A stretch of DNA of 64,000 nucleotides from Thermincola carboxydiphila (GTDB taxonomy: Bacteria > Bacillota > Thermincolia > Thermincolales > UBA2595): assembly GCA_016841725.1 (NCBI GenBank), contig JAENYP010000001.1:310001-374000 (forward strand), read 5' to 3'. Shown here piece by piece: positions 41,435 through 57,874 of this stretch. A model generated the notes under the pieces. The model was not told the origin of the DNA and made no database searches. It was given only the letters and a program-made list of their open reading frames with translations. How positions within the stretch are numbered: position 1 is the first letter of the stretch; each line of letters begins with the position of its first letter. Position numbers and translations under genes: made by a program.

Positions 41435-44400
41435 TTATACCGCCCTCCTTACATCAACCAGAAACGCCTTATATTCAGGAATCATCGTGTTGCCGTCACC
41501 GATATGCGGAGTCAGCTTATTGGCGATTTCTCCTGTTGCAATTCCCTGGTAGCCAAAGTGCCACGGCAGTCCTACCTCCTCAACCTGTTTCCCGTTAATT
41601 AGGAGAGGTTTAAAACGCTTGGTGACCAGGGCATATGTAGTAATTTCCCCCCTGGCACAGGATATCACAACCTTATCCCCGTTTTTGATCCCCCTGGCTT
41701 TGGCAAGGGATTCACTCATCTCCACAAACATATCAGGGAACAGTTCTGCCAGCCAGGGGAGGTTCCTGGTCATCTGTCCGGCCTGCCAGTGCTCTGAAAC
41801 ACGATAAGTTGTGCCGATAATCGGGAACCTGTCAGGTGACCCCTGTTCATTCATGGCTGTCTTCGGCACCTTAACCACCGGGTTAAGCTGGACGCCGGAC
41901 AGCGAGTTATTTACTGGGCTCTCCCATGGTTCATAGTGTTCAGGAAAAGGCCCTTCCTTCATTTTAGTGGTAAACAGCCCCCCCACTGTCTCCGGAAGCA
42001 TAATAAAGGGATTGGTCCCTCCGGGTTCTGCAGGCGCGAGGACGGCATTGAAGTCAGGGACATCCAGTCCCACCCACTTTCCTTTTTCACCTTTGAGGAT
42101 ATCACCTTTGGCGGGGTCCCACCAAATTAACTTGGAGTCATCAGACCAGGGCCTTCCTTCATAGTCTGCTGAACAGCGGTTGTACAAAATTCTGCGATTG
42201 GCCGGCCAGCTATAAGACCAGTTCAGGCAGTTCCCCAAACCGCCTTCATCTGTGTTGTCACGTCTCTGCGAAAGGTTCTTCCCTGCTTCGGGGTACATCC
42301 CGCAGAAAACCCAGTTTCCGCTGCAGGTAGAGCCATCATCTGACAGTTTAGCAAAACCGGGCACCTGTTTCCCGGTGAAGACATTGTATCCGTTGATTTC
42401 CCTGGCTACCTTATCGATATCAGGTTCATCACTGTCACCATAATCCCATAAAAGGTGTTTGATGGGGGCGGCAGCAGGGCTGCTCTCATTTTCATAAAGT
42501 TTTTTAACTCTCTTGAAAAGGCTGTTTATAATCCAGCCGTCAGATTTGGCATCATTAACCGGCTCAATTGCCTTCCAACGCCACTGAATCCACCTTCCGC
42601 TGTTGGAAACTGTCCCCTCTTTTTCAACGGAAGAGGCGGCAGGGAGCAAAAATACCTCTGTCTTAATATCAGCAGGGCGGGCGCCTGCTTTCTCGGTCCA
42701 GAAGGTCGAGGTCTCTGTCTCCCAAAGGTCAACACAGACCAACCATTCCAGATTTCCCAAAGCCTTTGCTTCTTTGTTGGCATTGGGACCGCCAACCACA
42801 GGATTCTGCCCAAAACAGAACATTCCCTTGATTTTCTCTTCATAAAGGGCCTCAAAAACTGAAATATGCGAATAATTAACCTGGGGGTCAATCTTGGGCA
42901 GGTATTGATAAGCAAATTCATTATCTTTAGTAGCATTGGGGCCCCAAAAAGCCTTCAACAGGCTGACCATAAATTTTGGTTTATTGGACCAGTAGCCTGT
43001 TTTCGGGGTCTCTGTCTCAAGATATGAGGCAAGAGTAGCATACTGAGGCGCAGCTGACGGAAGGTTAAGATAGCCCGGGATAAGGTGAAACAGGAGCGCC
43101 ATGTCTGTGGATCCCTGGACGTTTGCTTCTCCCCTGAGTGCATTAATGCCTCCACCGGGAACACCGATATTACCCAACAGCAGCTGCAGCATGGCATAAG
43201 ACCTTATATTCTGCGAACCCACGGTATGCTGGGTGGCCCCCATGGCATACAAAATAGTGCCGGCTTTGCCGCGGGCGCCGGTGGCAGCATAGGTATCGGC
43301 GATTTCCATATAAACACCTTTGGGAGTTCCCGTTATCCTGCACACAGTATCAATATCATAGCGCGAATAGTGTTTTTTCAGCAGCTGGAAAACAGTCCTG
43401 GGATGCTGCAGGGTCTCATCTTTGAGGGGTTGTCCTGCAGAATCCGTCTTGTATTTCCATGTGTCTGAGCTGTATTTGCGGCTTTTACTGTCATAACCGC
43501 TGAAGATTCCGTCTTTAAAATCATACCGGTCGTCAATGATAAAGGCGGCATTGGTATATTTCCTTACATAAGCTTCATTAAACATCCTGTTTCTCAGAAT
43601 ATAGTTAATCATTCCGCCAATAAAAGCTATATCTGTACCTGACCTGATCGGGGCATAAATATCAGCTTTGGCTGAAGTACGGGTAAACCTGGGATCGACA
43701 CTGATAATCCTGGCTCCGCGCTCTTCTCTGGCCTTGGTCAGCCACTTAAAGGACATGGGATGATTCTCAGCTGCATTGCTCCCAATAATCAGGGCACAGT
43801 CAGTATTTTTCAGGTCGATATAGTGATTAGTCATCGCTCCTCTGCCAAATGAAGGTGCCAGACCGGCAACCGTAGAGGAGTGTCAGATACGTGCCTGGTG
43901 TTCAAGATAGACCAGGCCCATGGAACGCATGGTTTTTGTCAGCAAATAGCACTCTTCATTGTCTAGGGCGGCGCCTCCCAGACAGGCAATACCCTCTGTG
44001 CGGTTAACGGTGACCTCAAGGTCGCCTCCTGTCTGGGGATCTTTGACTTTTTGACTGCTGATAAAAGTATTGTCCCGGGTCTGTTTAACTTTTTCAGCTA
44101 TCCGGTCCATAACCCAGTCCCATTCCCTGGTCTCCCACTTACTGCTTCCGGGAGCCCTGTAAAGAGGCTTGCCCAGCCTTCGTTCATTATTGGCTATCTG
44201 GTATAGTGATGACCCTTTGCTGCAAAGAGAACCCCGGTTAATGGGGTGGTCCGGGTCACCTTCGGTATTAATCACCTTACCATTTTCAACATAACATAAG
44301 ATCCCACACCCACAACTGCAGTAAGGACAAATAGTAGGTACTATCCGGGCAGACTTTATCTTAAAATCCATAACCTTTGCAGCCACAGGTTCCAGGTCAA

Positions 44401-44476
44401 ACCCCAATTCTCCAAAGACCAGGCCCAGGCCCGTCGCTCCGGACAGTTTCAGAAAACCTCTTCGTGAACACTTCAT
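41435..44476 (-). CDS. fdhA: Selenocysteine-containing, Tat-exported formate dehydrogenase catalytic subunit (UGA=Sec at 43883..43885)
   Basis: ORFs 43883..44476 and 41435..43834 are one frame split by UGA: ...[36 protein letters not shown]...; Tat motif SRRGFLKLS; CPYCSCGCG cluster. Confidence 0.95.
43837..43880 (-). promoter_or_regulatory. Bacterial SECIS element in fdhA
   Basis: Starting 3 nt after the UGA: CTCCTCT ... AGAGGAG 7-bp stem, with apical GGTTGCC-GGTCT-GGCACC; GGUC-type loop as in known fdhF SECIS. Confidence 0.85.
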
Positions 44477-44869: not shown

Positions 44870-46777
44870 TTAATAGAGGACTCTTTTATCATCAATGCGC
44901 CTGGTGATTTTCTCCTTATCAAAATAACCCATCACCGGCAGTGCAAACTTCCGGGACGTATTCAACAGGTCCCGGGCTTCTCCAAGAGTTATTTCCCCTT
45001 TCTCCTCAAGAAAACCTACCAGAAGTTCCCTGGCCTTGTCAAGATTCGTCCTATGTATTAATACATTATCTTCAAGCTTAACCAGAACCTTTTTGTTGAG
45101 GAAGTAACTCAGTATTTCTTCACTTTCTGCCGGGACCAGCCTGTGCCTGGATTTAATATCTTCCCACCCCGGTGTCTGGAAACCTGCAGAAAGATAGTCT
45201 GCCTCAATTTTGCGGAACAACTGAACCTGTTCACCCTGGGGTTCAGGCTGAAAACCCTTTTTAGCTATGTTTTCACCTGTAATGCCGATTACCTCATCTG
45301 CCTGATAAATGTCCATCAGGGCACTGAAAAGCTTGTTACTCATTCCCGGAAAGTACCTGCTCCTGATTTCTTCCTTTGAGATCCCCGGCCTCAGGGGATA
45401 AACAGCGTGATATTTTCCCAGTGCTGCTGCAATCTCGTCAGCTTTTTGGCTGTAAGAAGAATCCAACATATAATAAATCTTGTTTTCTGAGGTAAATTGC
45501 CTTAAAAGACCCTGGGATATCAGCTTGTTTATGGCCTCTGCCGTTGTGGCCTCATCAAATCCTCCGCCGCGCTCCAGGTCATCTCGTAAATATGCAGCCT
45601 GCCCGGAGGACAGCATAAACTGGTGCAGAAGTTCTTCCGGAGTCCCTTTTGCCTTGGTGCGCAGAATCTCAATAGTTTCCGCGTGAAACCGCTTCCGTTT
45701 GGGGGGAGCCGAATCAATAACCTTCCCCCCTCCAATGGTGGTCATTGGAGAATATGACCTGATTACCAGCAAATCATCCCGAGCAGCCACAATGGCGTCC
45801 TCACATTCCAGTTGGATAAATCCTGATTCGCCAGGCTCCAGTTCATCCTTTTCCAGGAGGATAACCCTGGCCAGAATTTCTGAAGTCCCTATATGTACCC
45901 TGACTCTGGCTCTGTTAGCCAGGGGTTTTTTGATGCCTGAAATGAGTTTAAGCTGCACATCAAGGCGGTGTGAGGAGTTAAGCATCCCCGGAGCGGCGAT
46001 TACACTCCCCCGGGTTATGTTTTCACGTTCTGTACCGGCCAGGTTTACGGCAACCCGCTGACCCGCCAGCGCTTCTTCGACCTTACTGCCATGGACCTGA
46101 AGTGTCCTCACCCTGGCTTCTTCCATATCAGGCAGAATTTCCACCACATCGCCAAGCCGCAATCTTCCCGAAAGCAAAGTCCCGGTAACCACTGTGCCAA
46201 AACCGGTCTTGGAAAATACCCTGTCAACAGGCATCCTGAAATATCCGGCAGCAGGACGTTCCCGGAGATTTTCCGCTGTCCTGTCGATTAACGCAATGAG
46301 TTCCCTGATACCTTCTCCGGTAACCGAGGATACCGGCACAACAGGAGCATCTTCCATCACTGTCTCCTTCACCAGTTCCCTTACTTCCTCCTGGACAAGG
46401 TCCAGCCATTCCTCATCAACCAGGTCTTTTTTAGTAATTACGATGATACCTTTCTGAACCTGAAGCAGATCAATAATATCAAGGTGTTCCCTGGTCTGGG
46501 GCATTATCCCTTCATCAGCAGCCACTACCAGGATTACCAGATCCATCCCGCCGACTCCGGCCAGCATATTTTTAATAAACCTTTCATGTCCGGGTACATC
46601 GACCACACCGGCCAAAACTCCGCTGGGGAGTTGAAAGGGCGCGAAACCCAACTCAATAGAAATTCCGCGTTCTTTTTCCTCCTTCAGACGGTCTGTTTCC
46701 TGACCCGTGAGGGCCTTTATAAGCCTGGTCTTACCATGGTCAACATGTCCGGCAGTACCAATTATGAAGTGCTTCAT
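44870..46777 (-). CDS. selB: Selenocysteine-specific translation elongation factor SelB
   Basis: [41 protein letters not shown]-terminal winged-helix repeats. Confidence 0.96.
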
Positions 46778-47896: not shown

Positions 47897-48976
47897 TTAA
47901 TAATATTTTAAAATATCATACCCCGTATTTCGTTGTGCGGGGGTATAGCCTGCATCCCTGATGCTGTGTATAATCTCATCCATAGGAACCCGGTTGCTGA
48001 CCCCGGCCGCCCTGACAACGTTTTCTTCCAGCATGGTGCCGCCAAAGTCGTTGGCCCCAAAGTTTAAGGAAACCTGGGCCATCTTGGCCCCCTGGGTTAC
48101 CCATGAAGCCTGGATATTGGGCACATTATCAAGCATCAGCCTGGATACGGCCAGAGTTTTCAGGTAATCCACACCGGTTGCTGTTTTACCGCCAAGCCTG
48201 GTGTTCAGAGGCTGAAAACTCCATGGGATAAATGCCCTAAACCCACCTGTACGGTCCTGGGCATCCCTGACCCGGACCAGGTGCATGACACGCTCCTCAA
48301 GTGTCTCCACACTGCCGAACATCATTGTGGCGGTGGACTTCATGCCCAGTTCATGAGCAGTTATCATTACATTCATCCATTCTTCCCAGGAAATTTTATC
48401 TGGACTAATATATTTTCTGACCCTATTGTCCAGAATTTCAGCTCCACCGCCAGGGATTGAAGCCAACCCTGCCTCACGCAGCCTGACCAGAACTTCACGC
48501 ACCGGAAGCCCGGTAATTTTGGAGAAATGGGCTATCTCCGGTGGTGAAAAAGAGTGAATGTCAATATCAAACCTTTCTTTAATGCCATGCAGCATGTCCA
48601 GGTAGTACGTAAACGGCAGTTCCGGATGAAGCCCGCCCTGCATGAGTATCTGGGTTCCGCCGCAGGCAACAGTTTCCCTGATTTTATCATAAATTTCATC
48701 ATAACTCAAAACATATGCATCGGGGTCCCCTGCAGAACGGTAAAATGCACAAAACCTGCACCCGGTAGTGCATATATTTGTATAGTTAATATTTCTGTCA
48801 ATAACAAAGGTGACCACCGGCTCCGGATGAAGCCTTTTGGTGACAGATGAAGCAGCCAGCCCCAGCAGGATTATTTCATCTGATTTGAGAAGGGCAACAC
48901 CCTCTTCAAGTTCCAGCCTCTTACCGGCAACAGCATTTTGAAGAATTCCTGCTATAGATTTACCCAATTTCTTCAC
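47897..48976 (-). CDS. mqnC: Cyclic dehypoxanthinyl futalosine synthase (radical SAM)
   Basis: NYTNICTTGCRFCAFYR; GGLHPELPFTYYLDM; operon context. Confidence 0.9.
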   Translation of the reverse strand: MKKLGKSIAGILQNAVAGKRLELEEGVALLKSDEIILLGLAASSVTKRLHPEPVVTFVIDRNINYTNICTTGCRFCAFYRSAGDPDAYVLSYDEIYDKIRETVACGGTQILMQGGLHPELPFTYYLDMLHGIKERFDIDIHSFSPPEIAHFSKITGLPVREVLVRLREAGLASIPGGGAEILDNRVRKYISPDKISWEEWMNVMITAHELGMKSTATMMFGSVETLEERVMHLVRVRDAQDRTGGFRAFIPWSFQPLNTRLGGKTATGVDYLKTLAVSRLMLDNVPNIQASWVTQGAKMAQVSLNFGANDFGGTMLEENVVRAAGVSNRVPMDEIIHSIRDAGYTPAQRNTGYDILKYY

Positions 48977-49829
48977 CCCAGATATTTAACTTAACCCGTT
49001 CTTCGATCAGCCCGCTTTTATATGCATAATCATAAAACGTCAGGAGCGCCTTTTGCTCTTCCTCACCAAAACTGTACTTGATAGTTTCAAAGTACCTTTT
49101 TAAGACCTTCAGGGGCAGGCCGGTCTTTTGGTGTGCCTTATCAACCAAAGCAGGAATATTGGCAAAACCATACTCCTTAGCTTTGATAAATGCATTACTG
49201 ATGTTTGCTACCTCTTCCGGATGTGCCTCAACGAAATTCCGGTTAATCACCCATAAGGCAAAAGTCATTTGGTGTCCGGTAAATTCCTTCCATGCTGAAC
49301 CCAGGTCCGTAATATGTAAGGACTCACCGCCCTGCTTTCTGACAGCCTCTCCGGCTAAAAGGGCATCATCCCCTATCAGGAGAGCAGCATCCGATTCCTT
49401 CAGCATCTGCTTCAGGTCCGGATCCTCCAGAGAATACTGAACCTCCTCATGGTAATAATGTTCAAACAGTATTTTTAGCAGCGCCACTGAAGTTGCTGAC
49501 GATGTCGGCAGACTGACTTTCAGTCCGTCCAATTCCGTTACCGGGACCTTACTGAAAAGGAGAATGCTCTCAACCGCTCCGTCAGCGCTGATGGAGACTT
49601 CCGGAAGAATCACGGCCTTTTCGCTGTGTCTGGCAAACTCAATAGATGAGATTGGGGTAATATCCAGTTTGCCGTCAATAAACATTTTATTCATTTTGGT
49701 CGGCGGTCCCTTGACCATTTTAGCAGCAATAGGGACCTGTCCCTGTTCAATAGCATAGTATACAGGCAGACAATTTATATAATCAATATAACCCAGCCGG
49801 ATTTCGCTCAATTTAAAAGCCCTCCTCAA
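48960..49829 (-). CDS. mqnA: Chorismate dehydratase / menaquinone biosynthesis protein
   Basis: RLGYIDYINCLPVYYAIEQG; ISSIEFARH; overlaps the mqnE and mqnC frames. Confidence 0.88.
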   Translation of the reverse strand: MRRAFKLSEIRLGYIDYINCLPVYYAIEQGQVPIAAKMVKGPPTKMNKMFIDGKLDITPISSIEFARHSEKAVILPEVSISADGAVESILLFSKVPVTELDGLKVSLPTSSATSVALLKILFEHYYHEEVQYSLEDPDLKQMLKESDAALLIGDDALLAGEAVRKQGGESLHITDLGSAWKEFTGHQMTFALWVINRNFVEAHPEEVANISNAFIKAKEYGFANIPALVDKAHQKTGLPLKVLKRYFETIKYSFGEEEQKALLTFYDYAYKSGLIEERVKLNIWGEEIG

Positions 49830-50931
49830 TTATTTTATAGAGGGTATCCCGTTCAGCGGGAATCCTTCCCGCTGCCTTAATCATCCCCACCAGTTCCTTT
49901 TTGGTAAGGGACTGTCCGCTGTCAGCTCCTGCGGCATGAGTAATCTGTTCCTCAACTACTGTACCATCTATATCATCAACTCCAAATGCCAGTGAGACCT
50001 GGGCCAGTTTAGGCCCTATCATAATCCAATAGGCCTTGATATGGTCAAAGTTGTCCAGCATCAGTCTGGATACTGCCAGCACTTTAAGGTCATCATACCC
50101 TGTCGTCCGGCTAAGCTTCGTCCCCTCCAGGGCGGTATTTTTCGGATGAAATGCCAGAGGGATAAAAGCCAGAAAGCCACCGCTCCGATCCTGAAGTTCA
50201 CGCAGTTTAATCAAATGGTCTATGCGTTCTTCCACAGTTTCTATATGTCCATACAACATTGTGGCATTTGTCAGCATACCCGCCTTATGGGCAGCTTCGT
50301 GCACCTCCAGCCATCTGGCGCCACTGATTTTTTTGTCACATATTTTGTCCCTGACCCTTTGAGCAAATACCTCCGCCCCACCCCCGGGAAGTGAATCCAG
50401 CCCTGCATCCATAAGACGGCGGATGACTTCCTCTATCGATAGGTTTTCGGTTTTGGCAAAATAGTCCAGCTCGACAGCAGTAAAGCCCTGGATGATTATG
50501 CCGGGTAATACCCGCCTGATCCGGCGCAGCATCTCCTCAAAGTACTGCAGTCTAAGCTTAGGGTTAAGCCCGCCGACAATGTGCAGCTCAGAGATGCCCT
50601 TGTCCCTCACTTCGACAGCTTTTCTCTCTATCTCATCAAGGCTCATGGTATAGGCCTCCGGGTCATCAGGCTTCTTCCCAAAGGCACACAACTTGCACAG
50701 GTTGTCACAGACATTGGTGTGATTGATATGGCGGTTTACAATAAAATAAGCATAGTCCCCGTTTTTCCTTTTTCTCACCATATCTGCCATATACCCTATA
50801 ACAAGCAGTTCATTGGAGCTCATCAACCTAACTCCGTCTTCAAAACTAAGCCTGGCACCATTATTTACTTTTTCAATTATGTCCAACAGTTTACTTTCGC
50901 TCAGCAGTTTACTTTCACTCAGCAGTTTCAT
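49813..50931 (-). CDS. mqnE: Aminofutalosine synthase (radical SAM)
   Basis: NHTNVCDNLCKLCAFGKKPDDPEAYTMS; GGLNPKLRLQYFEEML. Confidence 0.9.
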   Translation of the reverse strand: MKLLSESKLLSESKLLDIIEKVNNGARLSFEDGVRLMSSNELLVIGYMADMVRKRKNGDYAYFIVNRHINHTNVCDNLCKLCAFGKKPDDPEAYTMSLDEIERKAVEVRDKGISELHIVGGLNPKLRLQYFEEMLRRIRRVLPGIIIQGFTAVELDYFAKTENLSIEEVIRRLMDAGLDSLPGGGAEVFAQRVRDKICDKKISGARWLEVHEAAHKAGMLTNATMLYGHIETVEERIDHLIKLRELQDRSGGFLAFIPLAFHPKNTALEGTKLSRTTGYDDLKVLAVSRLMLDNFDHIKAYWIMIGPKLAQVSLAFGVDDIDGTVVEEQITHAAGADSGQSLTKKELVGMIKAAGRIPAERDTLYKIIEEGF

Positions 50932-50949: not shown

Positions 50950-51558
50950 CTAACTACCCTGCCATCTTTTGAAAAGGTGATGTTCTATCTTAAGTAAATC
51001 CAGGACCCTGCCAACAACGAAGTTAACCAGGTCTTCGATTGTCTCAGGCTTATGGTAAAATGCCGGAGCTGCCGGCACGATATGGACACCCATGCAGGCA
51101 AGTTCCAGCATGTTTTTAAGGTGTATCTGGTTGAACGGGGTTTCCCTGGGAACCACCACCAACTGCCGTTTCTCCTTCAGCATAATATCGGCAGCCCTTT
51201 CCACCAGGTTTTCCGAAGCCCCGCAAGCTATCCCGGAGAGGGTAGAAACAGTACATGGAATGATTATCATACCATCATTTCGGGCTGACCCGCTGGCAAT
51301 CTCGGCCCCAATATCCCTATAATCAAAATACCTCAGCGGGGCATCCCCGTTCAAGCCTAGATAACCCCCGATTTCCCTGGCCATGCCAGGGTCTCCGGGC
51401 TCAGGAAGGTCCCACGAAAGTTCTTCACGGAGGACCCTGAAACCCGGTCCGGTTATTGTCAGGCTGACCTCCTGGTTCAGCTTAAGTAAGGCCTGGAGCA
51501 TATTTCGCGCATAGATGGCGCCACTGGCTCCGGTAACAGCTATTATATATGAACCCAA
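50950..51558 (-). CDS. ubiX: UbiX-family flavin prenyltransferase
   Basis: AVTGASGAIYARNMLQALL; PCTVSTLSGIACG; VVVPRETPFNQIHLKNMLEL. Confidence 0.94.
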   Translation of the reverse strand: MGSYIIAVTGASGAIYARNMLQALLKLNQEVSLTITGPGFRVLREELSWDLPEPGDPGMAREIGGYLGLNGDAPLRYFDYRDIGAEIASGSARNDGMIIIPCTVSTLSGIACGASENLVERAADIMLKEKRQLVVVPRETPFNQIHLKNMLELACMGVHIVPAAPAFYHKPETIEDLVNFVVGRVLDLLKIEHHLFKRWQGS

Positions 51559-51586: not shown

Positions 51587-52483
51587 CTACAGCAATATTT
51601 TGAGCCCAAATATAATATCGGCAAAAGTAAAAACGAACAGCATTACACTAAGTATGCCATTCATATTAAAAAAAGCGGCATCAAGCTTAGATAAGTCAGT
51701 TGGACTAACCAGTGAATGTTCATAGATCAGAATACCTGCCGCCAAAATTATTCCAAGCCAGTAGAAATAACCCATACCCAGAAGCAGTCCATCCCATACC
51801 AGAAGTACTATTGTCAATACATGCAGCAGGCCGGAAAACACCAGAGCCCATCTAAGGCCAAAAACTGCCGGAATCGAATGAATTCCTTCCTTCCGGTCAA
51901 ATTCGTAGTCCTGACATGAATAAATAATGTCAAAACCAGCTACCCAGGCAACTACCACGAATCCCAGGATTACTGCAGGAAGCTCCACTCTGCCCGTAAC
52001 TCCAACCCAGCTTCCTACAGGAGCAAGACCCAGAGACAGTCCCAAAACAAGGTGACACGCCCAGGTAAATCGTTTGGTATAAGAATAGAGACTTAATACC
52101 ATGACAGCTATGGGCATCAGCTTGACCGTAAGGGGAACCGGCAGGTTAAGCGGGTTAAGCTGCCACGCTGCAACCAGAAGCAGGCCCCATGACAGGGCCA
52201 CATAAACCCAGACCTCGGCAACCGAAAGAATGCCTTTGGGAAGATGCCTTCCGGCAGTTCGGGGATTTCTGGCATCTATATGACGGTCAATCAACCGGTT
52301 TAAAGCCATGGCGGCCGTCCTGGCACCTACCATGGCCAGAGTTATCCAAAGCAATTCGTACCCTGTGGGAAAATTCCTTTTGGCCAGGAAGGCTCCCATA
52401 AAAGCAAATGGCAGGGCAAACACAGTATGTTCAAATTTTATCATTTCAGCAAAATGGCGCACCCGGGCAAATGCCATATTCAA
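51587..52483 (-). CDS. UbiA-family prenyltransferase (menaquinone pathway)
   Basis: MALNRLIDRHIDARNPRTAGRHLPKG; DIIYSCQDYEFDRKEGIHSIPAVFG. Confidence 0.93.
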   Translation of the reverse strand: MNMAFARVRHFAEMIKFEHTVFALPFAFMGAFLAKRNFPTGYELLWITLAMVGARTAAMALNRLIDRHIDARNPRTAGRHLPKGILSVAEVWVYVALSWGLLLVAAWQLNPLNLPVPLTVKLMPIAVMVLSLYSYTKRFTWACHLVLGLSLGLAPVGSWVGVTGRVELPAVILGFVVVAWVAGFDIIYSCQDYEFDRKEGIHSIPAVFGLRWALVFSGLLHVLTIVLLVWDGLLLGMGYFYWLGIILAAGILIYEHSLVSPTDLSKLDAAFFNMNGILSVMLFVFTFADIIFGLKILL

Positions 52484-52502: not shown

Positions 52503-54077
52503 CTACTCCTTAGCTGCTGCTACATTAGAGATAACAGATACAGGTTTAACCCCCACATGTACCGATACAACTCCCCCGGTCAGCTCATAGTAGTTTACGT
52601 TCTCCAGCCCCTGACGGGTAAATTCATCCTTCAGTTCCTTCTGGTGGGGAAAAACCTGCCACGAATTGTGGAGATATCTGTAAGGGCCTTCAATACCCGC
52701 TCCCAGTCTGCCAAGGAACGGTACACACCTGTTAAAATAAAAATTATATAACTGCTTAAAAAAAGGAACGGTAGGTTTGCTGAATTCAAGGCAGACAACG
52801 CGCCCTCCGGGCTTAATGACACGAATTATTTCCCTCAGGGTTTTTTTTAGGTCCGGAACATTCCGGAGCCCGAAACCAATTGTGGCACAATCGAAGGTAT
52901 TGTCAGGAAAAGGCATTTCCATGGCATTTCCCTGGATGTATTCGATATTATTTATCCCCTGCATGCCTTTCAGGTTGGTTTTTGCAATATCAAGCATTTC
53001 ACCACAGAAGTCAAGGCCGGTCACTCTTCCGGAAGGCCCTGCTTTTTTGGCCAATTCAACTGATATCATTCCTGTACCGCAGCAGACATCCAGAACGTGG
53101 TCACCCAGCCTTATTCCGGCTTTCTCAACAGTGAATTTTCTCCAAAATTTATCCCGGTTAAAACTCAGGAACGTGTTCATGGTATCATATTTATGAGCAA
53201 TAGACGAAAACACCGAGTGGACATATTGCTCCCTATCCCGGTAACCCTCGGGGATTTCCAGCCCACCTGGCGGTGTGTTTTTAAATTCTCCACACTGCCC
53301 TGTCTTCCTTAGCGGTACAGCAAGCTGACCATTCTTTAACTCATTGACCAGGCCTGCAAGGCCATCTCTTGCTTCTCCCGCCGGAAATCGCTGCAGTAAT
53401 TTGCCGGCAGCTTCAAAGTATGGCACAGCCAATTCCGTACCCAGGTTCCTTTCCATGATACCATAGCCCATTCCCAGGTTAAATCCTATTCCTGAAATGC
53501 TGGCCATTGCTTCACCCGAAACTGCAGCAAGCGCGCCTGCCATCCTAGCCGCTCCTTCAGTCAGGGCCGCACTTTCTTTTTCAATCACAAATAGGGCCAT
53601 CTTCATATCTGTCGCTTGAAGGCCCTGATGCTTTCTTCTCTGTAAGGCGCCATAATTCATATCGGCTATAACGGAAGCCAGGGGATTAAGGAATTGCAGA
53701 ATCTCCCCGGCACAAAGTTCCACAAAGAACCGGCCATAAAGATAATCTCCGGCCAACACCGGCAGCTGCGCCCCATCTTTGAGGTCTTCCTCAACCGGAT
53801 TCCTCACGCAGTTGTCAGGAACCCGAAACTGGACAGCTGAGGCCAGGTATATTAACTGAATCACTGCAGCAAGGCTGACCAGCCTGGACCCAGTATAACC
53901 CAAAAGCCTGCCGGAAAACAAAACCAGGGCCGGATGCAAATATTTTTGCACCGACTCTGTTTCAACATGGGCAAATTTGCTCAAATTCCCGGGTTTTATC
54001 TTAAAGGCTTTTGCCACTTTCTCGTCTACCGATTTTAAATCATCCAGAATCGATTCCAGGAATTCGGCTGCCATCAA
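52503..54077 (-). CDS. Fusion: degenerate trans-polyprenyl-synthase-like domain + MenG/UbiE methyltransferase
   Basis: N-terminus KYLHPALVLFSGRLLGYTGSRLVSLAAVIQLIYLASAVQFRVPDN...LPVLAGDYLYGRFFVEL (polyprenyl synthetase pattern without DDxxD); C-terminus VLDVCCGTGMISVELAKKAGPSGRVTGLDFCGEMLD...GFGLRNVPDLKKTLREIIRVIKPGG. Confidence 0.88.
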   Translation of the reverse strand: MMAAEFLESILDDLKSVDEKVAKAFKIKPGNLSKFAHVETESVQKYLHPALVLFSGRLLGYTGSRLVSLAAVIQLIYLASAVQFRVPDNCVRNPVEEDLKDGAQLPVLAGDYLYGRFFVELCAGEILQFLNPLASVIADMNYGALQRRKHQGLQATDMKMALFVIEKESAALTEGAARMAGALAAVSGEAMASISGIGFNLGMGYGIMERNLGTELAVPYFEAAGKLLQRFPAGEARDGLAGLVNELKNGQLAVPLRKTGQCGEFKNTPPGGLEIPEGYRDREQYVHSVFSSIAHKYDTMNTFLSFNRDKFWRKFTVEKAGIRLGDHVLDVCCGTGMISVELAKKAGPSGRVTGLDFCGEMLDIAKTNLKGMQGINNIEYIQGNAMEMPFPDNTFDCATIGFGLRNVPDLKKTLREIIRVIKPGGRVVCLEFSKPTVPFFKQLYNFYFNRCVPFLGRLGAGIEGPYRYLHNSWQVFPHQKELKDEFTRQGLENVNYYELTGGVVSVHVGVKPVSVISNVAAAKE

Positions 54078-55388: not shown

Positions 55389-55649
55389 CTAAAAGTTCAA
55401 CCATCCCCCAATCAGGCGCTTTTCCATCTTTTGTATATGCAACTCCTTGTTATTGCCGCTATTGCCACCCGAATCACTGCCGCCACCGTTTTCTTTGTCG
55501 TTTTCTTTGCCCTCGCCATTACCACCCTTGGCAAGAAGCATATACATGAGTTCAGGCTCCTGCTTTTTGGCTTTGTTCTGTCCCTGAGACAAATCCGGGG
55601 TTGTTGCCTTTGCCACAGTCATTTTTATAAGTGGACATAGTATGGGCAA
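55389..55649 (-). pseudogene. RHS linker remnant (third copy)
   Basis: GQNKAKKQEPELMYMLLAKGGNGEGK...GGNSG matches the linker of both other RHS copies. Confidence 0.7.
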
Positions 55650-56484: not shown

Positions 56485-57874
56485 TTAATCGTTAAATTGC
56501 CTAAACAAAAGCAAATATTCTATCGTTTCTCTGCCATATTCGGTTGCACCGTTATATTTAGTAAGAACTTGCTCTAATTGATTGTCTGTAGCTTTTTCTA
56601 AATTAATTTTTAAGTTTTCAGCTTTTAATTCTAATACTAACCCGGCATAAAAAATATTTTCTTCATCATCATCTCTAAGCTTATACCGAATAAAATCCTA
56701 TGTTTTTGTTATATTCAACAAAATTCAGGTGTTTAGAAACCAATTTTTCTAAATTATCTCTAAGTTCATATTCACTGATTCCCTGATTGGATTCCTTCTT
56801 ACTAAATCCCAACGGATCCACCCAATTCACCGGGTTATTCTCCACATAAGCATACTTATGCATACTCAACGGATTAGCCATATATCCAGGGAATACATCC
56901 CTGGTCATAAACCGCCCCAGCTTTGGCGCATAGTACCTGCTCCTCAGGTACAACAGGTCACCTTCTTCATCCCACAACTCCCCGGTATAGCCGAACGCAT
57001 TATGGTTTACGTTTCGGCCATCCTCGGACAGCTTCGCTCCTGGGGCAGGCACACCATATTCATCATAGTTATAGTGGTCCCGTATCGCGCCATTGGGACG
57101 AATCATCTGGCGCACACTGCCCAGGCCATCGTAAAGATAGTACAGCGGGTCCTGGGTTTCCGGCCTTGTATCATCTAATGCTTCTACCTTGATGCGCTCT
57201 AAGCCGTATGCATAGGCAGCCTGATAATTATCCTCATCATCAAATGTCATCAGAACTTGTGGAGCTAAATTTACAGCATCATTGAGATAATATGTACTTT
57301 CAAGCAGCTGAGGGTTCAGGCCAAGTTCCAGCAGTTCGGCAAATTTACCGTTTTTGTACCAGCCTAAATGTTTACCCTTGTTTTCAAATTTGCCCTTGCC
57401 GGTGTAGCCTTTTCCGTTGTTGGTTTTGTCTTTATCCTGGCCTTTGCCGGTATTATCTTTGTCCTGGTCTGGCCCTTTGCCGTTATTGGATTTATCTTTA
57501 TCATTACCCTTGCCGTTATCGCTTTTACCGCCATTGCCGTTATTGCTGCTGCCACCCGAATTACCGCCAGAATTGCCGCCGCTGTTTCCTTTGCCCTCGC
57601 CATTACCACCCTTGGCAAGAAGCATATACGTGAGTTCAGACTCCTGCTTCTTGGCTTTGTTCTGTCCGGGCGGGATATTTTCTTTTTTTTGTTCTTTCTC
57701 TTTTTCTTCTTGGTTATTCTTTAGCTTTTCTTCCTGGTTATTTTTCAGCCCTTCATTAATAATTTCCTTTACAGGGCTCTTGGTTGTCATCTTCAGGGTC
57801 TTGTTCCCGGCACCATCATAGTCATATATAACGAGCTTGTCCTGGGGCAAATCCACTTCAATAAGGCGGTTAGC
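56485..57874 (-). pseudogene. Orphan RHS core/tip cassette, frameshifted in its tip
   Basis: Core nearly identical to 59222..60280; no N-terminal repeats; tip ...YNKNIGFYSV* continues in another frame as FIRYKLRDDDEENIFYAGLVLELKAENLKINLEKATDNQLEQVLTKYNGATEYGRETIEYLLLFRQFND*. Confidence 0.8.
56792..57874. repeat. Direct duplication of the RHS core, copy A (copy B = 59222..60280)
   Basis: Near-identical over >1 kb; main difference is a 24-bp in-frame indel (EEKLKNNQ). Confidence 0.93.

Follow-up and report, generated by a model that had tools for sequence, protein, structure and literature searches.

A candidate HepS-type subunit joined to the menaquinone methyltransferase MenG in Thermincola

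Two-part prenyl synthases and the Thermincola menaquinone operon

In Micrococcus luteus, the prenyl synthase HexA-HexB is made of two parts: the motifs are in HexB, and a possible role of HexA is to fix the chain length through the cavity. HepS and HepT of Bacillus subtilis are likewise two-part (PMC7839719, in the portion of that article covered here). The corresponding B. subtilis operon, hepS-menG-hepT, consists of separate genes (PMC12903253, from the part of the text covered). The literature passages covered offer no explanation of why hepS, menG and hepT cluster in many Bacillota. Non-catalytic proteins with a prenyl-synthase fold that modify a catalytic partner are also found among the small subunits of plant geranyl diphosphate synthases (3qkc, 3oac), but these are eukaryotic, unfused and concerned with short-chain products, and are a parallel to the case described below rather than a relative of it.

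We analyzed a stretch of 64,000 nucleotides of Thermincola carboxydiphila DNA (contig JAENYP010000001.1, forward-strand positions 310,001 to 374,000), hereafter the window, to which all coordinates refer unless stated otherwise. Its minus strand holds a frame running from 54077 to 52503 with no internal stop, whose product has three parts: a catalytically dead polyprenyl-synthase domain (hereafter N-domain), a flexible linker, and a MenG/UbiE domain (Table 1). The ATG at 54074, which is codon 2, is the likelier start when compared with the TTG at 54077, because of a GGGGG box upstream and the pattern in relatives.

The fusion ORF heads a futalosine menaquinone operon in which mqnA, mqnC, mqnE and the gene for a UbiA-type prenyltransferase are all present; the order of the genes 3' of it, all on the same strand, is UbiA-type prenyltransferase, UbiX, MqnE, MqnA and MqnC, and an HD-domain protein is encoded upstream. 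The operon has no UbiD although UbiX is present; at other places, this genome has two genes of the UbiD family (G000:C15, C12). Many relatives have an ORF in the gap before ubiA which, from its sequence, we take to be UbiD-like.

Table 1. The fusion ORF, its parts, the operon that follows it and the HepT-type enzyme of the same genome
Feature	Position	Strand	Details and basis
Fusion ORF (HepS-like domain + MenG/UbiE methyltransferase)	52503..54077	minus	524 aa from TTG at 54077; 523 aa from ATG at 54074
N-domain, degenerate trans-polyprenyl synthase fold, HepS-like	53328..54074	minus	residues 2-250; Pfam/NCBIfam matches, AlphaFold, fold searches, trees
QFRVPDN, site of first Asp-rich motif (HDDxxD)	53811..53831	minus	residues 83-89; alignment
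GDYLY, best-conserved element of N-domain family	53736..53750	minus	residues 110-114; alignment
GYGIMERN, site of second Asp-rich motif (FQxxDDxxD)	53445..53468	minus	residues 204-211; alignment
Linker	53238..53327	minus	residues ~251-280; low pLDDT, varies among relatives (full-length AlphaFold, codon alignment)
MenG/UbiE domain, putative demethylmenaquinone methyltransferase	52503..53237	minus	residues 281-524; PF01209 (Ubie_methyltran) at residues 282-511, E 1e-81; NF001243 267.6 bits, equivalog cut-off 235
UbiA-type prenyltransferase (MqnP-like), next operon gene	51587..52483	minus	PF01040 E 3e-54; TIGR01475 316 bits, cut-off 180.8
UbiX-family flavin prenyltransferase	50950..51558	minus	TIGR00421 204 bits, cut-off 108.9
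MqnE, aminofutalosine synthase	49813..50931	minus	TIGR03700 506 bits, cut-off 434.55
MqnA	48960..49829	minus	PF02621 252.9 bits, cut-off 26
MqnC, cyclic dehypoxanthinyl futalosine synthase	47897..48976	minus	TIGR03699 506.7 bits, cut-off 428.1
HepT-type enzyme	G000:C25:296496-297464 (= L119:6496-7464)	same strand as fusion	322 aa; both DDxxD intact; 65 kb from fusion

The arrangement resembles that of the heptaprenyl diphosphate synthase (HepS-HepT) of B. subtilis in having a non-catalytic homologue followed by menG, in the missing Asp motifs and the presence of a conserved V-L-x-GDY helix, and in the occurrence of a HepT-type partner in the genome. It departs from it in that the first two genes make one protein, hepT is at a distance, ring synthesis follows the futalosine pathway, and the score of the domain is under the cut-off of the family model PF07307. 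With the hexaprenyl diphosphate synthase HexA-HexB of M. luteus (3aqb) it would share the heteromer logic of a non-catalytic small subunit acting as chain-length ruler (PMC7839719, same portion), but HexA is a free small protein with no methyltransferase attached. We consider it probable that the Thermincola protein is a natural fusion of MenG with the small, non-catalytic HepS-type subunit of a heteromeric synthase for long-chain polyprenyl diphosphates, in which the N-domain pairs with HepT and helps to set the chain length while the tether co-localizes MenG.

The C-terminal half, which exceeds the NF001243 cut-off as stand-alone MenG/UbiE proteins do but is preceded by 280 additional residues, probably retains MenG activity; it falls short of the stricter model TIGR02752 (261.5 bits against 419.85). 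Here and elsewhere, the name of a Pfam or NCBIfam model was not treated as establishing function. The genome also encodes a second, stand-alone MenG (L120:7047-7775, G000:C31; NF001243 259.7 bits, cut-off 235), and therefore the fusion may not be the sole MenG of this organism. This second copy lies far from the operon, belongs to a different clade from the fused MenGs, and has as neighbours what are presumably spore-germination-like genes.

Motifs, fold and constraint of the N-domain

From its letters, an earlier note on this DNA had recognized in the N-terminal half the scaffold of the polyprenyl synthases with both Asp-rich motifs lost. All the scaffold strings that it quoted are present, and alignment with catalytic synthases places QFRVPDN where these have HDDxxD and GYGIMERN where they have FQxxDDxxD. 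We assembled 74 distinct N-domains, nine fused and 65 encoded by a gene of their own (split). Not one has Asp at all three columns of the first motif (FARM), or at all three of the second (SARM), or the GGK motif. The contrast with the catalytic rows owes something to how rows were selected, since possession of two DDxxD was the criterion for the catalytic rows and absence of these motifs the criterion for some of the split ones; no such choice accounts for the alignment of the same strings at both motif sites. The G-D of the GDYLY helix, which follows the first motif, is kept in 73 of the 74, and GDYLY is invariant or nearly so in 52 aligned N-domain rows. All eight HepS rows display the same pattern, with the Asp motifs and GGK gone and G-D kept.

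The N-domain does not possess the two DDxxD motifs by which a catalytic polyprenyl diphosphate synthase is recognized. Its match to PF00348 (polyprenyl_synt) covers residues 45-207 and reaches 23 bits, or 25.6 when the domain is taken alone, under a cut-off of 27. A profile of 19 N-domains searched against solved structures retrieved long-chain synthases (E 1e-29), B. subtilis HepT (9kp1_B, 6e-24) and B. subtilis HepS (9kp1_A, 9e-8). When genome contigs were searched, a profile yielded 55 N-domain loci, and a single N-domain protein used as query gave no match in the same contigs.

The prenyl-synthase fold that the earlier note predicted is borne out by structural modelling. AlphaFold, run on an alignment of 52 rows, returned an all-helical model with high confidence (pLDDT 90.4, pTM 0.89), and VIA-align found its best solved matches among long-chain polyprenyl synthases (3oyr, Z 27.4 with rmsd 2.6 over 240 residues; 4jyx, Z 26.8), with scores well above the common helical-bundle level. 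Fold searches also retrieved HepT of B. subtilis (chain 9kp1_B, E 4e-6), the non-catalytic small subunits from plants (3qkc, Z 24.3; 3oac, Z 23.1) and HexB, the large subunit of the M. luteus enzyme (3aqb_B, Z 23.8). HexA (3aqb_A) and B. subtilis HepS (9kp1_A) were not among the matches listed, from which we draw no conclusion.

The N-domain is under purifying selection. In two Thermincola pairs its dN/dS (NG86) is 0.163 and 0.110, with 0.113 and 0.086 for the MenG domain, and because these values are far below 1 the N-domain is constrained and not decaying. It is thus extremely improbable that we are dealing with an active synthase with unusual motifs or with a decaying pseudogene domain, a reading that could appeal to the Pfam polyprenyl_synt match just below cut-off but has against it, besides the low dN/dS, the high-confidence fold and the fact that no fused row, of nine, has more than one Asp in the three FARM columns or in the three SARM columns. 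On the missing Asp motifs we rejected an active synthase.

In the full-length AlphaFold model both domains are kept, but the overall pTM is 0.54 and the linker has a pLDDT below 60, with residues 260-280 uncertain. The model therefore implies no interface between the halves, and depicts the fusion as two bodies on a flexible tether.

Kinship with HepS and the HepT-type partner

The description of the protein as a HepS-like subunit fused to MenG, also put forward in the earlier note, is well supported by the fold, the loss of motifs, the grouping in trees, the position of hepS before menG and the existence of a HepT-type partner; what did not follow is a match to the curated HepS model PF07307 (HEPPP_synt_1), which the window N-domain misses with 14.1 bits against a cut-off of 30. 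This cut-off fails to separate the two kinds of protein, because a catalytic enzyme (G213, 31.1) passes it too, alongside two split relatives (G230, 31.3; G253, 30.1). By sequence, the N-domain is closer to HepT and octaprenyl synthases than to HepS, and what places it with HepS is the tree, synteny and co-occurrence.

In the tree, HepS falls with the N-domains in a single group (SH-aLRT 99) that comprises 65 of the 101 rows. The 32 catalytic rows are still separate (100/99) once the sequence of the three motifs and the rows with the longest branches are removed; rooted on FPP synthase with motif columns dropped, the clade of N-domains plus HepS obtains only 40/0. If either N-domains or HepS are left out, the other joins the catalytic tree on the same branch; for N-domains this position was read from the printed tree, and for HepS it was recovered in 119 of 200 bootstrap trees. 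When one B. subtilis-type HepS is aligned to a profile of 52 N-domains, hhalign gives a probability of 90 and an E-value of 1.6e-6. These data suggest that the N-domain probably descends from a common line with HepS, apart from the catalytic synthases, and it is possible that long-branch attraction inflates this kinship.

Gene neighbourhoods are similar as well. In all eight genomes with a Bacillus-type HepS, menG is the next gene and hepT lies in the same cluster. Among the 65 distinct split loci, which were partly chosen for menaquinone or synthase neighbours, 61 are by some menaquinone gene and three of the other four by a catalytic synthase; menG is next in 29, and a UbiA-type gene lies within 4 kb in 43. 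At two loci (L162 of G015, L194 of G112) the gene for the degenerate domain directly precedes a catalytic synthase and no menaquinone gene was recognized in the stretch, and therefore a pair of HepS-like protein and synthase may also serve other prenyl products.

A catalytic HepT-like partner, which the earlier note had proposed to look for, is present in the same genome. This genome has three polyprenyl-synthase matches, namely the fusion itself, a farnesyl-diphosphate-synthase-like enzyme and the HepT-type enzyme of Table 1, which is encoded outside the fusion operon and whose best NCBIfam match is TIGR02748 (HepT), with 366 bits under a cut-off of 456.55. A full HepT-type match (at least 419 bits, the next class reaching at most 336) occurs in 57 of the 59 genomes with a clear N-domain, and this becomes 58 with G233, where the enzyme is in two contig-edge pieces; the sole exception is G006, a genome 75% complete. 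Conversely, among 60 genomes with no clear N-domain, 52 have no HepT-type match and eight do (at least 429 bits, the next 370), and these eight (G015, G030, G073, G077, G023, G036, G068, G084) all carry HepS or a weaker HepS-like gene in the cluster. We read the HepT-type enzyme and the HepS-like domain as a putative obligate pair, on the strength of this distribution across genomes. HepT-type enzymes of the window's family (L119:6496-7464 and relatives L124-L129) have GTY in the helix that follows the first Asp motif, where GDY is usual and is retained by the partner domain; G-D is absent in eight of 41 catalytic rows, not all from this family.

The same distribution bears on another reading, in which the N-domain has abandoned HepT and its old prenyl cavity holds the side chain of demethylmenaquinone, or docks at the membrane, to present the ring to MenG. 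Such a role would agree with an intact prenyl-synthase fold devoid of catalysis, with the covalent link to an enzyme whose substrate is prenylated and with the conservation of GDYLY. However, the split form is often found by UbiA or a catalytic synthase without MenG (directly before UbiA at 10 of 65 loci, before a synthase at L162 and L194), and its co-occurrence with HepT-type enzymes is nearly complete. These two facts indicate that the constant partner is HepT rather than MenG, and we regard the abandonment of HepT as quite improbable.

Origin of the fusion and its possible role

The gene is a single uninterrupted frame of 524-532 codons in all ten genomes of the order, which are the same ten that make up the class and represent seven genera and two families. 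The possibility that two separate genes had been joined by an assembly slip or a frameshift, which the earlier note had set out as a check, is ruled out by this unbroken frame in ten of ten. Elsewhere in the phylum the N-domain gene and menG are side by side as separate genes. A PF01209 scan of 398 genomes of the phylum gave no independent fusion outside the class among the matches listed; three frames longer than 450 aa (G363, G063, G075) among these turned out on reading to be overlapping frames or spurious extensions.

The fused N-domains form one clade (SH-aLRT 99), and so do the fused MenGs (SH-aLRT 99), which are placed among MenGs that adjoin a free N-domain gene. Adjacent genes were therefore fused in place, and once. 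The parts are known already, but the one-chain form, fixed across a class, appears new to print: we did not find this fusion described in the literature, searched by title listings and abstract openings.

A neutral origin has to be considered here, in which a working HepS-type subunit and a normal MenG were joined by a stop loss that was then frozen, with no effect on flux or localization. Split relatives with menG next have the two genes mostly between about 35 bases overlapping and about 57 bases apart, so one mutation can join them, and the single origin and the flexible, variable linker are equally in keeping with such an accident. The persistence of the frame in all ten genomes speaks to some extent against it, as does the lack of a conserved internal start from which the window species could make MenG on its own, neither of which shows a benefit by itself; at the corresponding point there is no ATG in the window or in G001, G002, G003, G005 and G009, and there is one in G004, G006, G007 and G008. 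Because a neutral fusion would look identical in sequence, we keep it as an unlikely but serious alternative.

In the preferred reading, that of a HepS-type subunit acting with HepT, the N-domain would pair with the HepT-type catalytic subunit encoded 65 kb away and, as HexA may do for HexB, would form the distal wall of the cavity in which the chain elongates, thereby contributing to the length of the side chain. MenG, carried on the flexible linker, would be part of this complex. The side chain could then be made, and the final C-methylation carried out, at one place on the membrane, next to the UbiA-type prenyltransferase whose gene adjoins the fusion. Both the physical pairing and the chain-length role are proposed by analogy with the described heteromers, and an effect of the tether on flux is the part of the proposal in which we have least confidence.

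The prenyl diphosphate is first used by the UbiA-type prenyltransferase, and decarboxylation by UbiD/UbiX follows before methylation. Because these steps intervene, a direct channel is unlikely, as is the coupling of chain-length control to methylation that the earlier note had suggested: there cannot be a direct hand-off between chain-length control and the last step. At most, the fusion co-localizes or co-doses a side-chain synthase subunit and MenG, and tethering within a common complex and a neutral fusion are both more plausible than such coupling.

A broader proposal, which we advance tentatively and think rather less likely than the pairing with HepT, is that HepS also serves as a scaffold holding MenG, the order hepS-menG reflecting a physical contact in Bacillus too that has become covalent in Thermincola and its kin. 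The crosslinking papers apparently behind the PDB model 9a4c, when searched, yielded no relevant passage on heptaprenyl, HepS, menaquinone or MenG. A natural fusion present throughout a class makes the idea of a complex for side-chain synthesis and methylation directly testable with two proteins. More generally, the degenerate synthase domains make up a large family whose members mostly score under the curated HepS thresholds and which tracks HepT-type enzymes almost one to one. There is a risk that annotation will label such genes as active prenyl synthases; HepT enzymes of such pairs, when expressed alone, would probably be inactive or make products of the wrong size, which matters for vitamin K2 engineering.

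Other genes of the window deserve mention. The ORF of a formate-dehydrogenase-like large subunit (41435-44476, minus) has an in-frame TGA after ...VYLEHQARI and continues with HSSTVAGL..., and this TGA is therefore likely a selenocysteine codon. Beside it, the gene at 44870-46777 presumably codes for a SelB-like elongation factor, both family names being our assumption. Two minus-strand ORFs, which we take to be YD-repeat/RHS-like proteins (56681-57856 and 58550-61003), have in common a block of 360 residues that is 94% identical and includes a Gly/Asn/Lys-rich stretch, and a short ORF at 55389-55649 looks like a third remnant of such a protein.
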